A stretch of DNA of 64,000 nt from Halocatena pleomorpha. GTDB lineage: Archaea; Halobacteriota; Halobacteria; Halobacteriales; Haloarculaceae. Position 1 is the first letter of the stretch. Each line of letters opens with the position of its first letter. This document shows positions 1 to 54,537 of this stretch, in pieces. A program made the position numbers and the translations under genes. The notes under the pieces are model-generated. The model did no database searches, was not told the origin of the DNA, and was given only the letters and a program-made list of their open reading frames with translations. Where the stretch lies: NCBI RefSeq assembly GCF_003862495.1, contig NZ_RRCH01000004.1, positions 1-64,000 of the forward strand, written 5' to 3'.

Positions 1-12
1 GGGGGGAAGGAA

Positions 13-619
13 ATGACGTTGCCAGTGTTTCAGTTCTGGGACCGGCTGGGCGAATCGGTGAACATCTCGACGGTCGAGGATCGAGGCCGGATTTCGAAGG
101 CTGAGCTGTACTACGTGATGGACGTAGGGAACGGTGTGTGGTGTCGCCAGAAGCCGAAGGCTTCTGGCTGCTAACCAGAATCTCCGATTCTGGTGATGTA
201 AGCCCTGTCGGAGTACGGGCTGTGCGCACGCCAGCCAGATCGAAGAGATCTTGGCGACAGCCGGGCTTGGCCGGTCACAGACGGACTACGACGATTTGCC
301 CAGCATTGCGAACGTCACACGGTATGAGGCAACGGGCGAGCTGGTCGTCACGGGCTGGTTCGACAATGGCGGGCGCGTCCGCTACCATGAGCAGCGCGAT
401 GGGACCGTCGTCCAGTCGGTGTACACCCCTGAAAACGATCGAGAGCCAACCGAGGTGACCGAACAGCCCGACGCAACGAGTGCCCCAGCCGCGCTGGTCG
501 CACTGTTGGCGGAGTACTGCCACTATCGCCAGCGTGGTGACTTGGACGGATTACGGGCGTGTTATCCCGACGTGGCTCGTGTCGTGGACAAAGCGCCAGT
601 CGTCCACGCCGACGACTGA
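13..619 (+). pseudogene. Interrupted zinc-finger-like protein gene, copy 1
   Basis: An ATG at 13 opens a frame (MTLPVFQFWDRLGESVN...) that stops at 172-174. The rest of the protein continues in another frame from about 211 to the TGA at 619 (...GRVRYHEQRDGTVVQSVYTPE..., ending VVHADD). Removing the 64-nt hairpin segment at 147-210 joins the halves into one 180-codon frame reading WCRSTGCAHA at the junction, a plausible Cys/His metal site. A paralogue at 53193-53799 has the same interruption at the same codon. I do not recognise a named function. Either the gene is dead, or the segment is removed or bypassed during expression. The conserved downstream coding sequence argues that the interruption is recent or tolerated. 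Confidence 0.6.
147..210 (+). repeat. 64-nt double-hairpin insertion, copy 1
   Basis: There are two near-adjacent perfect hairpins. The first has stems CCAGAAGCC (147-155) and GGCTTCTGG (159-167) around a GAA loop. The second has stems ACCAGAATC (174-182) and GATTCTGGT (186-194) around a TCC loop. The codon TGT at 142-144 before the element is matched by TGT at 206-208 at its end. Its 64-nt length shifts the frame, and it brings in stop codons. The layout resembles, from memory, the palindromic 3' ends of haloarchaeal IS200/IS605 TnpB elements and PATE-type miniature derivatives. No transposase is present nearby. Confidence 0.65.
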
Positions 620-678
620 GAACAACAGAGTCGGTGGAGGCGGTCGCGGTGCGGGGGCGGAGCGGGCAAGGTCATTCC

Positions 679-763
679 CCGCGAGCGTCAGCGAGCGGCC
701 TTTTTTGGTCCAGATTTTTTGCGTGAGGGTGGCGCAGCCACCCGAACGGAAAAAAGGTGGTGG
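679..763 (+). repeat. T-tract palindrome module, copy A (terminator-like)
   Basis: The module reads GCGAGCG...GAGCGGCC, then two T6 tracts separated by GGTCCAGA, then the perfect hairpin GGGTGGCGCAGCCACCC at 727-743, and ends GGAAAAAAGGTGG. The outer arms CCTTTTTT and AAAAAAGG are themselves inverted repeats, so T-tracts occur on both strands. It lies exactly between the 3' ends of the interrupted gene (+) and the ferritin-like gene (-), where a bidirectional terminator would be expected. Related copies occur at 52401, 53044, 53869, 54181 and 54457. Confidence 0.7.
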
Positions 764-42307: not shown

Positions 42308-43009
42308 AAATGAAGGAATCCGTATGCGCGACTGTTGCCTGTAATATTTTGAATAATAGGTAATTATTTCACGCTGCCAAGTAGGTCCCCTGTTGGTGAC
42401 GGCTGCACCCGGCTTTAATAGAGAGATGCTTCTTGTCTATAATCTCGACAAACAACAAAATAAATAGCGTGTGATGCATTATATATTTCACAAACTGTGA
42501 ATATGACAAACAAGTTATGTTGTTTCGTTATATAAATGGGGGTGCGAATACGATTCTGGGACAGAGGAGTGACACCGATGCTGTTTTCATAGATGATGGA
42601 ATTGAATCCGAGGTTGTTCATAACGGACGAGTCGCCTACAGAGCAGTCAGATTCGGAGCATTGCGTTCTTGGCGACTGTTCTTTCAAGGAGAGAGTCCCG
42701 CCGTTCACGGCGTTGACGAGAGGCGATGCGTCTCGTTCGCACAGCAGAACGCTTCGCGTTCTGCGGACGGGCGTGAATCCGACATGGACGTTCGTTTCCG
42801 CCGTCGCTGGCTGGCCCCCAAACGTTTCGCCCATGCCGTGACAAACGTAGTATCACGGGTTCCGCCATCTCCCCACCGGTAGGCCACCGGGGGAGACGGG
42901 CCCCACTCCACCCATTCGCGAGCGTCCCGACAGCCGGCGCTCTGGCGACAGCTGATCGAACGATTTGTATTCTGAGTGGTTCTCGGTTCACGACGACCGT
43001 ATCCGTCCC
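42308..43009. other. 700-bp intergenic region with strong hairpins
   Basis: No confident protein gene is seen. Part 42308-42560 is A/T-rich, with TTATATAA near 42527-42534 as a possible promoter on either strand. Part 42600-42960 is GC-rich and structured. There is a perfect 9-bp hairpin (stems GCAGAACGC at 42744-42752 and GCGTTCTGC at 42756-42764, TTC loop) of the same design as the 64-nt insertions. A longer imperfect stem sits around 42865-42900 (CTCCCC...CCGGT...ACCGG...GGGAG). It could be a structured RNA or a decayed IS200/IS605 end. No RNase P or SRP signature was recognised. Confidence 0.4.
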
Positions 43010-52896: not shown

Positions 52897-53043
52897 ATGA
52901 CTGGGAACGAAGCAGAGACATGTAACGGTGTCGAATCGTATCAGAAACGTGACCAGCGCCAGCGATGTCCCCGCTGTGGGCGGCCAGTCCGTACCCGCCT
53001 CGACCATCGGATCGGTTGCCCATTGGGACGGTGGTGGCGATGA
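52897..53043 (+). CDS. Small zinc-ribbon protein, 48 aa
   Basis: This 48-aa protein starts MTGNEAETCNGVESYQKRDQ. It has a CPRCG knuckle at about residues 24-28, further Cys at positions 9 and 42, and a basic Trp-rich tail (PLGRWWR). It probably binds zinc and possibly nucleic acid or a protein partner. From memory, similar tiny genes recur in haloarchaeal genomes next to the MTLPVFQFWDRLGESVN-type gene found here at 53193. The T-tract module begins directly at its stop codon, separating it from that partner. Confidence 0.6.
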   Translation: MTGNEAETCNGVESYQKRDQRQRCPRCGRPVRTRLDHRIGCPLGRWWR

Positions 53044-53186
53044 CCCACCTTTTTTCCGCTCGGGTGCGCTTCGCGCACCCTCCCGCAAAAAATCTGGACC
53101 AAAAAAAGCCGCTCGTTTGACGAGACGGTCGCTCACTCCGTTCGCGCTGCGACTCGTTGGCTCCCGCTCACTTCGTTCGCGGGGGG
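53044..53186 (-). repeat. T-tract palindrome module, copy C
   Basis: Same family as copy B on the minus strand, including AAAAAAGG outer arm, two T-tracts and a variant hairpin (GGGTGCGCGAAGCGCACCC). The GC-rich inner segment is displaced to the distal side. It begins at the last base of the zinc-ribbon gene and ends seven bases before the ATG of the interrupted gene. It therefore looks inserted between two formerly adjacent genes. Confidence 0.65.
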
Positions 53187-53192
53187 CAGGAG

Positions 53193-53799
53193 ATGACATT
53201 GCCAGTGTTTCAGTTCTGGGACCGACTGGGCGAATCGGTGAACATCTCGACTCTTGATGATCGGGACCGGATTTCGAAAGCGGAGTTGTACTACGTCGTG
53301 GACGTGGGGACAGGAACATGGTGTCGCCAGAAGCCTTCGGCTTCTGGCTGCTAACCAGAATCTTCGATTCTGGTGATGTAAACCGTGTCGGAGTACAGGC
53401 TGCGCCCACGCCACCCAGATCGAACAGATTCTAGCAACCGCTGGGCTGGGCCGGTCACAGGTGAACGACGACGACCTACCCGGGATTGCGAACATCACGC
53501 GCTATGAAGCGACGGGGGAAATGGTCGCCACCGGGTGGTTCGAGAACGGTGGCCGGGTGCGGTACCACGAACAGCGCGATGGGACTGTGGTCCAGTCGGT
53601 GTACACGCCCGAGGACGAGCAGGACCCGACCGCGATAACCGAACAGCCCGACGCAACGAGTGCCCCAGCCGCGTTGGTCGCACTGTTGGCGGAGTACTGC
53701 CACTATCGCCAGCGCGGCGATCTCGACGGCTTGCGGGCCTGTTACCCCGATGTGGCTCGTGTCGTGGACAAAGCTCCAGCCATCCACGCCGACGACTGA
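53193..53799 (+). pseudogene. Interrupted zinc-finger-like protein gene, copy 2
   Basis: Paralogue of the gene at 13-619, with the same lengths throughout. The ATG is at 53193, the early stop at 53352-53354, and the second part runs from 53391 to TGA 53799. Deleting 53327-53390 restores a 180-codon frame with WCRSTGCAHATQ at the junction. The downstream part keeps the motif GGRVRYHEQRDGTVVQSVYTPE and ends AIHADD. The two copies differ by many mostly conservative substitutions, so both descend from an ancestor and have been under some constraint. No named function is recognised. Confidence 0.6.
53327..53390 (+). repeat. 64-nt double-hairpin insertion, copy 2
   Basis: The stems are identical to copy 1 (CCAGAAGCC/GGCTTCTGG and ACCAGAATC/GATTCTGGT). 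The first loop is TTC where copy 1 has GAA, its exact reverse complement; the second loop is TTC versus TCC. Flanking GTGTCG occurs at 53321-53326 and 53385-53390, placing matching TGT codons at 53322-53324 and 53386-53388. Confidence 0.7.
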
Positions 53800-53868
53800 G
53801 AACAGCAGAGTCGGCGGTCGCGGAAGCGGAGCGGAGGTGGGGCGGAAGCGGTCGCGGGCAAGGTCACT

Positions 53869-54025
53869 CACCGCGAGCGCCAGCGAGCGGCTTTTTTTAG
53901 TCCAGGTTTTTTGCGTTCCCGCGAGCGGTAGCGAGTGGGAACCAGCGAGTCGCAGCGCGAACGAAGTGAGCGACCGGCTCGCGTGGTGAGGGTGGCGCAG
54001 CCACCCGAGCGGAAAAAAGGTGGGC
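53869..54025 (+). repeat. T-tract palindrome module, copy D (long form)
   Basis: Plus-strand copy with GCGAGCG...GCGGC, T7, AGTCCAGG, T6, about 75 bp of GC-rich inner repeat, the GGGTGGCGCAGCCACCC hairpin and AAAAAAGG. It follows the stop of the interrupted gene and leads directly into the first tandem 3'-end remnant. Confidence 0.7.
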
Positions 54026-54124
54026 TGGTATCGCCAGCGCGGTGATCTCGATGGACTGCGGGCCTGTTACCCTGACGTGGCTCGTGTCGTGGACAAAGCG
54101 CCAGTCGTCCACGCCGACGACTAA
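54026..54124 (+). pseudogene. Tandem 3'-end remnant 1 of the interrupted gene
   Basis: A 32-codon stretch reads WYRQRGDLDGLRACYPDVAR followed by VVDKAPVVHADD and TAA. It matches the C-terminus of the genes ending at 619 and 53799. No start codon or upstream body is present. It joins the preceding module at a sharp boundary. Confidence 0.7.
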
Positions 54125-54180
54125 AAACACAAAGGCGGCGGAGGCGGTCGCGGTGCGGGGGCGGAGCGGGCAAGACGCAG

Positions 54181-54265
54181 CACCGCGAGCGTCAGCGAGC
54201 GGCCTTTTTTGGTCCAGATTTTTTGCGGGAGGGTGGCGCAGCCACCCGAGCGGAAAAAAGGTGGG
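54181..54265 (+). repeat. T-tract palindrome module, copy E (short form)
   Basis: Nearly identical to copy A at 679-763: GCGAGCG...GGCC, T6, GGTCCAGA, T6, GCGGGA, the 17-nt hairpin GGGTGGCGCAGCCACCC, and AAAAAAGG. It separates the two tandem 3'-end remnants. Confidence 0.7.
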
Positions 54266-54266
54266 C

Positions 54267-54365
54267 TGGTATCCCCAGCGCGGCGATCTTGATGGACTGC
54301 GGGCCTGTTACCCAGACGTAGCACGCGTCGTCGGTGAGCCGCCAGCTGTCCACGCCGACGACTAA
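54267..54365 (+). pseudogene. Tandem 3'-end remnant 2 of the interrupted gene
   Basis: A second 32-codon remnant reads WYPQRGDLDGLRACYPDVAR followed by VVGEPPAVHADD and TAA. It is diverged from remnant 1, so the duplication is not recent. No start codon is present. Confidence 0.7.
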
Positions 54366-54456
54366 AAACAACAGAGTCGGTGGAGGCGGTCGCGGCGGCG
54401 GAGACGGTTGCGGCGGCGGAAGCGGTCGCGGCGGCGGAAGACGCAGGTGTAGTCAC

Positions 54457-54537
54457 CGCGAGCGGTAGCGAGCGGCTTTTTTAGTCCAGGTTTTTTACAC
54501 GAGGGTGGCACAGCCACCCTCGTGTAAAAAAAGTGGG
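54457..54537 (+). repeat. T-tract palindrome module, copy F
   Basis: Last copy: GCGAGCGG, T6, AGTCCAGG, T6, then a longer perfect hairpin (arms ACACGAGGGTGGC and GCCACCCTCGTGT around ACA) and A7. It is preceded at 54376-54450 by a GC-rich stretch with repeated GCGGCGGCGGAAGCGGTC-like units. It lies 16 nt from the stop of the next gene (minus strand), fitting a terminator for both sides. Confidence 0.65.

Follow-up and report, generated by a model that had tools for sequence, protein, structure and literature searches.

A palindromic double-hairpin repeat at one shared codon of a multicopy gene in Halocatena

The analysed window, a stretch of 64,000 nt from Halocatena pleomorpha, contains two paralogous gene copies, W1 and W2, each interrupted by a short double-hairpin insert (Table 1). 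As written, translation of both copies ends after 53 codons (for W1 in the frame from the ATG at 13), at an in-element TAA that stands ten codons 3' of TGT and lies at 53352-53354 in W2. In W1, 43 codons before the insert and 140 behind it can be aligned with element-free paralogues. With the insert removed, the protein comprises 183 residues, reads W-C-K-P-C-R-S-T-G-C-A-H-A across the junction and carries the invariant zinc-type ligands C44, C47, C52 and H54. The initial annotation had foreseen correctly that cutting the insert restores one frame with a Cys/His site, while its count of 180 codons has to be replaced by 183. A split copy that ends at the TAA loses most of the zinc site and the entire C-terminal part, and would be expected to lose its function. 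Searches of Pfam, NCBIfam, PADLOC and the PDB sequences gave no match to the host protein, and its AlphaFold model was only moderate (pLDDT 70, pTM 0.57). A small ORF with zinc ligands (CPRCGRPVRTRLDHRIGCPLGRWWR) lies 5' of many gene copies, e.g. at 52899-53045 of the window; its stop appears to overlap the gene start (ATGA) in the related genome G005, and at W2 the two are about 150 bp apart, the gap being filled with hairpin sequence. Two partial 3'-end gene copies, comprising the last ~32 codons, are arranged in tandem 3' of W2 (window 54026-54121 and 54270-54362), and comparable 3' fragments occur at C10:826, at C18:21329 and in other genomes.

Table 1. Features of the split genes, their inserts and related gene copies. 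Plain positions refer to the window; G000 is the present genome, C denotes its contigs, and G003 and G005 are other Halocatena genomes.
Feature	Position	Strand	Remark
Split gene copy W1	13..619	+	intact frame of 183 codons = 13-141 + 197-619
Split gene copy W2	53193..53799	+	53193-53321 + 53377-53799, minus insert
Inserted unit in W1, 55 nt, TG-TC-hairpin-TGCTA-hairpin-GA	142..196	+	missing from element-free paralogues (TGG^TGY)
Inserted unit in W2, 55 nt	53322..53376	+	alignment with element-free paralogues
W1 hairpin 1	146..168	+	10-bp stem, GAA loop
W1 hairpin 2	174..194	+	9-bp stem
W2 hairpin 1	53326..53348	+	TTC loop
W2 hairpin 2	53354..53374	+	
Insertion target TGG^TG in W1, Trp-Cys codons	139..143	+	
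TAA stop in W1 upstream frame	172..174	+	created by inter-hairpin linker
Third match to element model	42711..42769	+	weak (28 bits); decayed or related palindrome pair
Split copies in G000	window 13, window 53193, C23:148159, C61:59185-, C33:36789		
Element-free copies in G000	C59, C9, C10, C31, C40		C9 runs off contig
Decayed pseudogene in G000	C23:340881		with half an element
Element-free copies at W1/W2 orthologous loci	G003 1560836, 1432892; G005 2407328, 2136184		

Double-hairpin inserts at one shared codon of two paralogous genes, as the initial annotation had described them, were confirmed at 142 and 53322. Their length had been given as 64 nt. The alignment of intact homologues across the junction, which had been proposed as a check, yielded element-free copies and corrected the borders to 55 nt: intact copies read ...VWCKPCRSTGCAHA and element-free paralogues TGG TGY AAG CCC TGT CGG... 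Since the latter contain TGY AAG CCC TGT, the nine bases TGTAAGCCC (197-205) are gene sequence, wrongly cut with the element. The insert of W1 can equally be placed at 144-198, with TG standing at both ends. The matching TGT triplets noted earlier at 142-144 and 206-208, and at 53322-53324 and 53386-53388, do exist; the nearest landing TGT, however, is 197-199 and not 206-208. As the unit starts and ends with TG at nearly all of the ~60 listed sites, the recurring TG(T) belongs to the element itself, and the terminal TG may be either a 2-bp target duplication or part of the element sequence. Both hairpins of the W1 insert are far above chance, with a DNA fold of -19.3 kcal/mol (z = -7.3, reached by 0/200 shuffles). 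The hairpin 1 loops of W1 and W2 are exact inversions of each other; hairpin 1 of W2 and C33 is inverted exactly relative to W1, C23a and C61, in units that are otherwise identical, and a comparable loop flip was found among the copies of G005.

The gene belongs to a multicopy family. In the present draft genome (G000), a DNA search found at least 11 copies, of which five were split, five element-free and one a decayed pseudogene. Six other genomes of the genus Halocatena (G001 to G006) were compared. G005 had about 31 copies, in five of which a different unit, 51 nt long, interrupted the same codon. None of 17 places read in Halocatena salina AD-1 (G003) was split; one of these was frameshifted and one decayed. 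A protein search of relatives found the gene in this genus only (7/59 genomes). Fragments included, four of the other six Halocatena genomes gave 20-39 matches each, and each of the remaining two gave a single one. A GTDB contig scan and a search of plasmids gave no relatives, and in complete genomes the family sits on the largest contig. In G003 and G005, orthologues of the genes adjoining W1 and W2 stand beside an element-free copy, which makes gain in the G000 lineage the best reading of the two inserts. In the gene tree the split copies are polyphyletic, and copies group by species despite the synteny of at least two loci. As judged from the sequences, this clustering is concerted evolution, and it indicates exchange between paralogues.

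After removal of the insert, nine of the ten split copies were otherwise open; the copy at 930941 of G005 had a further nonsense codon. Private substitutions, counted as nonsynonymous to synonymous, were 20:31 in split versus 9:16 in intact copies of G000 and 11:5 versus 85:61 in G005, thus relaxed selection was not detected in the split copies, in a comparison of low power. The similar ratios speak neither for decay nor for constraint, because the inserts are young and exchange between paralogues refreshes their sequence. All the same, open frames and substitutions that look unrelaxed count against the interpretation favoured below, in which the insert inactivates the gene.

A covariance model built from ten units matched all seven genus genomes searched, with 13-151 matches per genome, both palindrome strands often being counted, and 124 of 195 haloarchaeal genomes across the order. 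An Rfam search of window positions 1-700 gave no match. The consensus at the listed sites is TG[TC-GCC..GGC-TGCTA-ACC..GGT-GA]TG. Units are 45-59 nt long and dispersed, single or in arrays, in intergenic regions and within genes on either strand; repeats in arrays are joined at GATGTC, and other hairpin modules occur in arrays as well. The exact unit was found, in G000, in the present gene family only. Many unrelated sites were thus found, an outcome named beforehand as support for mobility. Among the genes that contain units are tnpB, tnpA, a GNAT-like gene and an acyl-CoA synthetase-like gene. Phase and length decide whether the result is a frameshift, a stop or an in-frame peptide, the last being seen in L232 (tnpA) and in the ORFs at L127 and L131. 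IS605-type targets comprised tnpA (L228, L232), tnpB (L093, L095, L127, L130) and an IS605 left end (L227). Mixed hairpin modules (CACGAGAGC, GAGGCGC and CCGGCC types) form long arrays at L123, L117, L135 and window 53800-54520, and at the same places T-rich hairpin tracts adjoin gene copies.

The stems vary strongly in sequence and keep their pairing. Over 114 distinct rows fitted to the covariance model, 98% of the pairs were standard, and 412 two-sided changes stood against about 28 one-sided ones; a ten-row MAFFT alignment gave 29 against 1. The scarcity of G-U intermediates points, as far as the alignments can tell, to DNA palindromes or to the exchange of whole palindromes rather than to pairing in RNA.

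Every one of the 61 copies examined had TGGTG at the insertion codon, against ten copies at most for any other position. The shorter GGTG was likewise universal at this codon, the next most frequent position being occupied in 27 of 61, and a copy contains GGTG about five times in sense and three times in antisense orientation. At isolated sites outside the family, GG preceded TG in 9 of 32 cases against a background of 11.5% (P = 0.008). One strict TGGTG target for every site was considered and rejected, as only GG was enriched. The universal presence of TGGTG allows the shared codon to be accounted for by target preference together with exchange between paralogues. With about eight GGTG sites per copy, it would be unlikely for ten independent insertions to fall on a single one, so that either such exchange or a longer target motif is needed. 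Recurrent use of one site was also seen outside the family. The tnpA genes of G004 (L228) and G005 (L232) carry a 45-nt double hairpin at HFVW^CPKYR, again within TGG^TGT, the empty site being known from element-free tnpA; the insert of L232 is translated in frame as a peptide, that of L228 is interrupted by TAG. In the tnpB of G002, G004 and G005 (L093, L095, L130), an antisense unit lies at the same His-Arg codons, and the genes are open after its removal.

The insert is very probably a dispersed, transposase-less palindromic mobile repeat that truncates the gene. Defined borders, empty sites, dispersal, arrays, insertion into unrelated genes, two-sided stem changes and a conserved target all support the repeat. 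It would consist of two hairpins joined by TGCTA and flanked by TG, and would insert preferentially at GG^TG. TGG^TG at Trp43-Cys44, which alone among such sites is shared by all copies of the family, would have been hit in copies of at least two species, in a single orientation, and some of the inserts probably spread by exchange between paralogues. The loss of split copies is presumably tolerated because many intact copies persist. Movement may follow a single-stranded, IS200/IS605-like route with an enzyme supplied in trans, as suggested by insertion 3' of G[G/A]TG, by GATG as the right end and as the site of tandem arrays, and by the right ends of resident TnpA/TnpB elements, which consist of a hairpin and GATGTC. 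The likeness of the hairpins to the 3' ends of TnpB elements, pointed out in the initial annotation, was recovered by eye in the same genome. Its favoured reading, a miniature mobile insertion, agrees with the unrelated sites and with the empty paralogous and orthologous sites; movement by an IS200-type TnpA is the conjectural part. Y1 transposases were found in four of the seven genus genomes, but G001, G002 and G006 contain units and gave no Y1 transposase match.

How the inserts came to share one codon could also be explained by a single insertion per species, followed by gene conversion to paralogues instead of repeated targeting. We consider this a serious though tentative possibility, and it does not exclude a mobile repeat. 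The elements within a species are nearly identical, the grouping by species despite synteny indicates exchange, left-flank codons track the loop orientation in five G000 copies, and the exact unit of G000 is restricted to this family. A shared flanking haplotype as a sign of conversion was, however, not seen among the split copies of G000: they were no more alike near the insert (P 0.33 to 0.998 for windows within 240 nt), and several pairs differ already 3-6 nt from the border. In G005 a single window (+33 to +63) was more alike (P = 0.002). The recurrent same-site inserts in tnpA and tnpB also argue for targeting.

Could the insert serve the cell? An adaptive role, through a regulated or truncated protein form of 53 residues, appears improbable. 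The short product does end in Cys-stop in both species by the same element design, but this ending is set by the TGC-TAA linker of the element itself, and the insert is not conserved at orthologous loci. A slightly lower probability still is given to translational bypassing, in which the ribosome would leave TGT 142-144 and land on TGT/TGC at 197-199, in the manner of mobile byps or of phage T4 gene 60. In 10/10 copies the true insert of 55 or 51 nt stands between matched Cys codons (TGT, TGY), hairpins occur together with a nearby stop, an identical codon is used in two species, and the open frames and unrelaxed private substitutions described above would fit. However, matched codons follow from the TG at both unit ends, whatever the site, and are expected anywhere. 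The unit is also intergenic, antisense in genes or plainly translated in frame, orthologous loci lack it, and one split copy has its second nonsense codon. The two-sided stem changes with few G-U pairs fit DNA better than RNA. In T4 gene 60 the stop is next to the take-off codon (PMC8211752), whereas here it follows ten codons after the supposed take-off. A wider proposal sees in the repeats mobile elements of archaea that are bypassed or remove themselves: ribosomes or RNA processing would skip them, and full-length protein would still be made. It is judged equally remote, as is its corollary that for this reason the copies stay open and matched Cys triplets mark the codon at which inserts persist. 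Both alternatives, bypassing and RNA-level removal, had been raised in the initial annotation; the nine open split copies leave them a small probability, but positive support for them did not emerge, and the proposed take-off and landing spacing had been derived from the wrong borders. Removal at the RNA level, e.g. by the archaeal bulge-helix-bulge intron mechanism, is the least credible of all: excision restores the reading frame and archaeal introns of similar size exist, but the insert forms two self-contained hairpins, by inspection its centroid fold has no helix joining the exon-intron borders, Rfam gave no match in this region, and the unit is also antisense and intergenic.

A palindromic mobile repeat with variants in haloarchaea thus recurrently strikes one codon of homologous genes, in the present family, in tnpA and in tnpB, across species. 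The recurrence makes its target rule and the putative mobilising enzyme directly testable. Inserts at the same codon with matched triplets can mimic programmed bypassing, and the gene family supplies ready empty and filled alleles for a bypass test.

Several known systems resemble the unit in part. Rickettsia palindromic elements (RPE) are palindromes within ORFs, some of which are translated as an in-frame peptide, as in an example from R. conorii; the unit shares the position within ORFs and the occasional in-frame reading, but sequence, host and size differ, and the gene here receives a stop. Byps interrupt genes as short, mobile hairpins with matched codons on either side. Such elements exist in the mitochondria of Magnusiomyces capitatus (PMC8211752). 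Both are short hairpin inserts with matched codons, whereas the present unit is also extragenic and antisense and is an improbable bypass element. With IS200/IS605 elements it has in common the hairpin followed by GATGTC, seen by eye at right ends in the same genome, and a tag-adjacent insertion without clear duplication; unlike them, it has neither a transposase nor a left end with a spaced guide sequence and consists entirely of hairpins.

Bacterial REP, BIME and REPIN sequences with their RAYT transposases offer paired or arrayed short palindromes with conserved unpaired tags, dispersed and sometimes intragenic, as here (PMC3733652, PMC2817692, PMC3116915). Their tags are GTAG or CGTC (PMC3733652), in contrast to GATGTC and TGCTA in the unit, which therefore lacks the REP tag, and a dedicated RAYT for the unit was not found in the genus genomes. 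The small mobile repeats (SMR) and palindrome-associated transposable elements (PATE) of Haloquadratum walsbyi are transposase-free and favour IS605-type targets (PMC3119063). Like the unit, they are haloarchaeal, short, multicopy and palindromic, with a strong target preference and frequent insertion into IS605-type elements (PMC3119063); the unit is too short for a transposase gene, multicopy, dispersed and frequent in IS605-type elements. Target duplication is absent from the SMR/PATE class, and the TG at both ends of the unit may be a 2-bp duplication or element sequence. SMR-A, of about 110 bp, has terminal inverted repeats and occurs in few types (PMC3119063), compared with 45-59 nt for the unit; a 52-bp terminal-only PATE also exists (PMC3119063). 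The unit differs from SMR and PATE by its two independent hairpins, its highly variable stems, its arrays and its recurrence at one codon of a cellular multicopy gene. It is closest to the SMR/PATE of Haloquadratum, a placement made by description, and to the bacterial REP and RPE.
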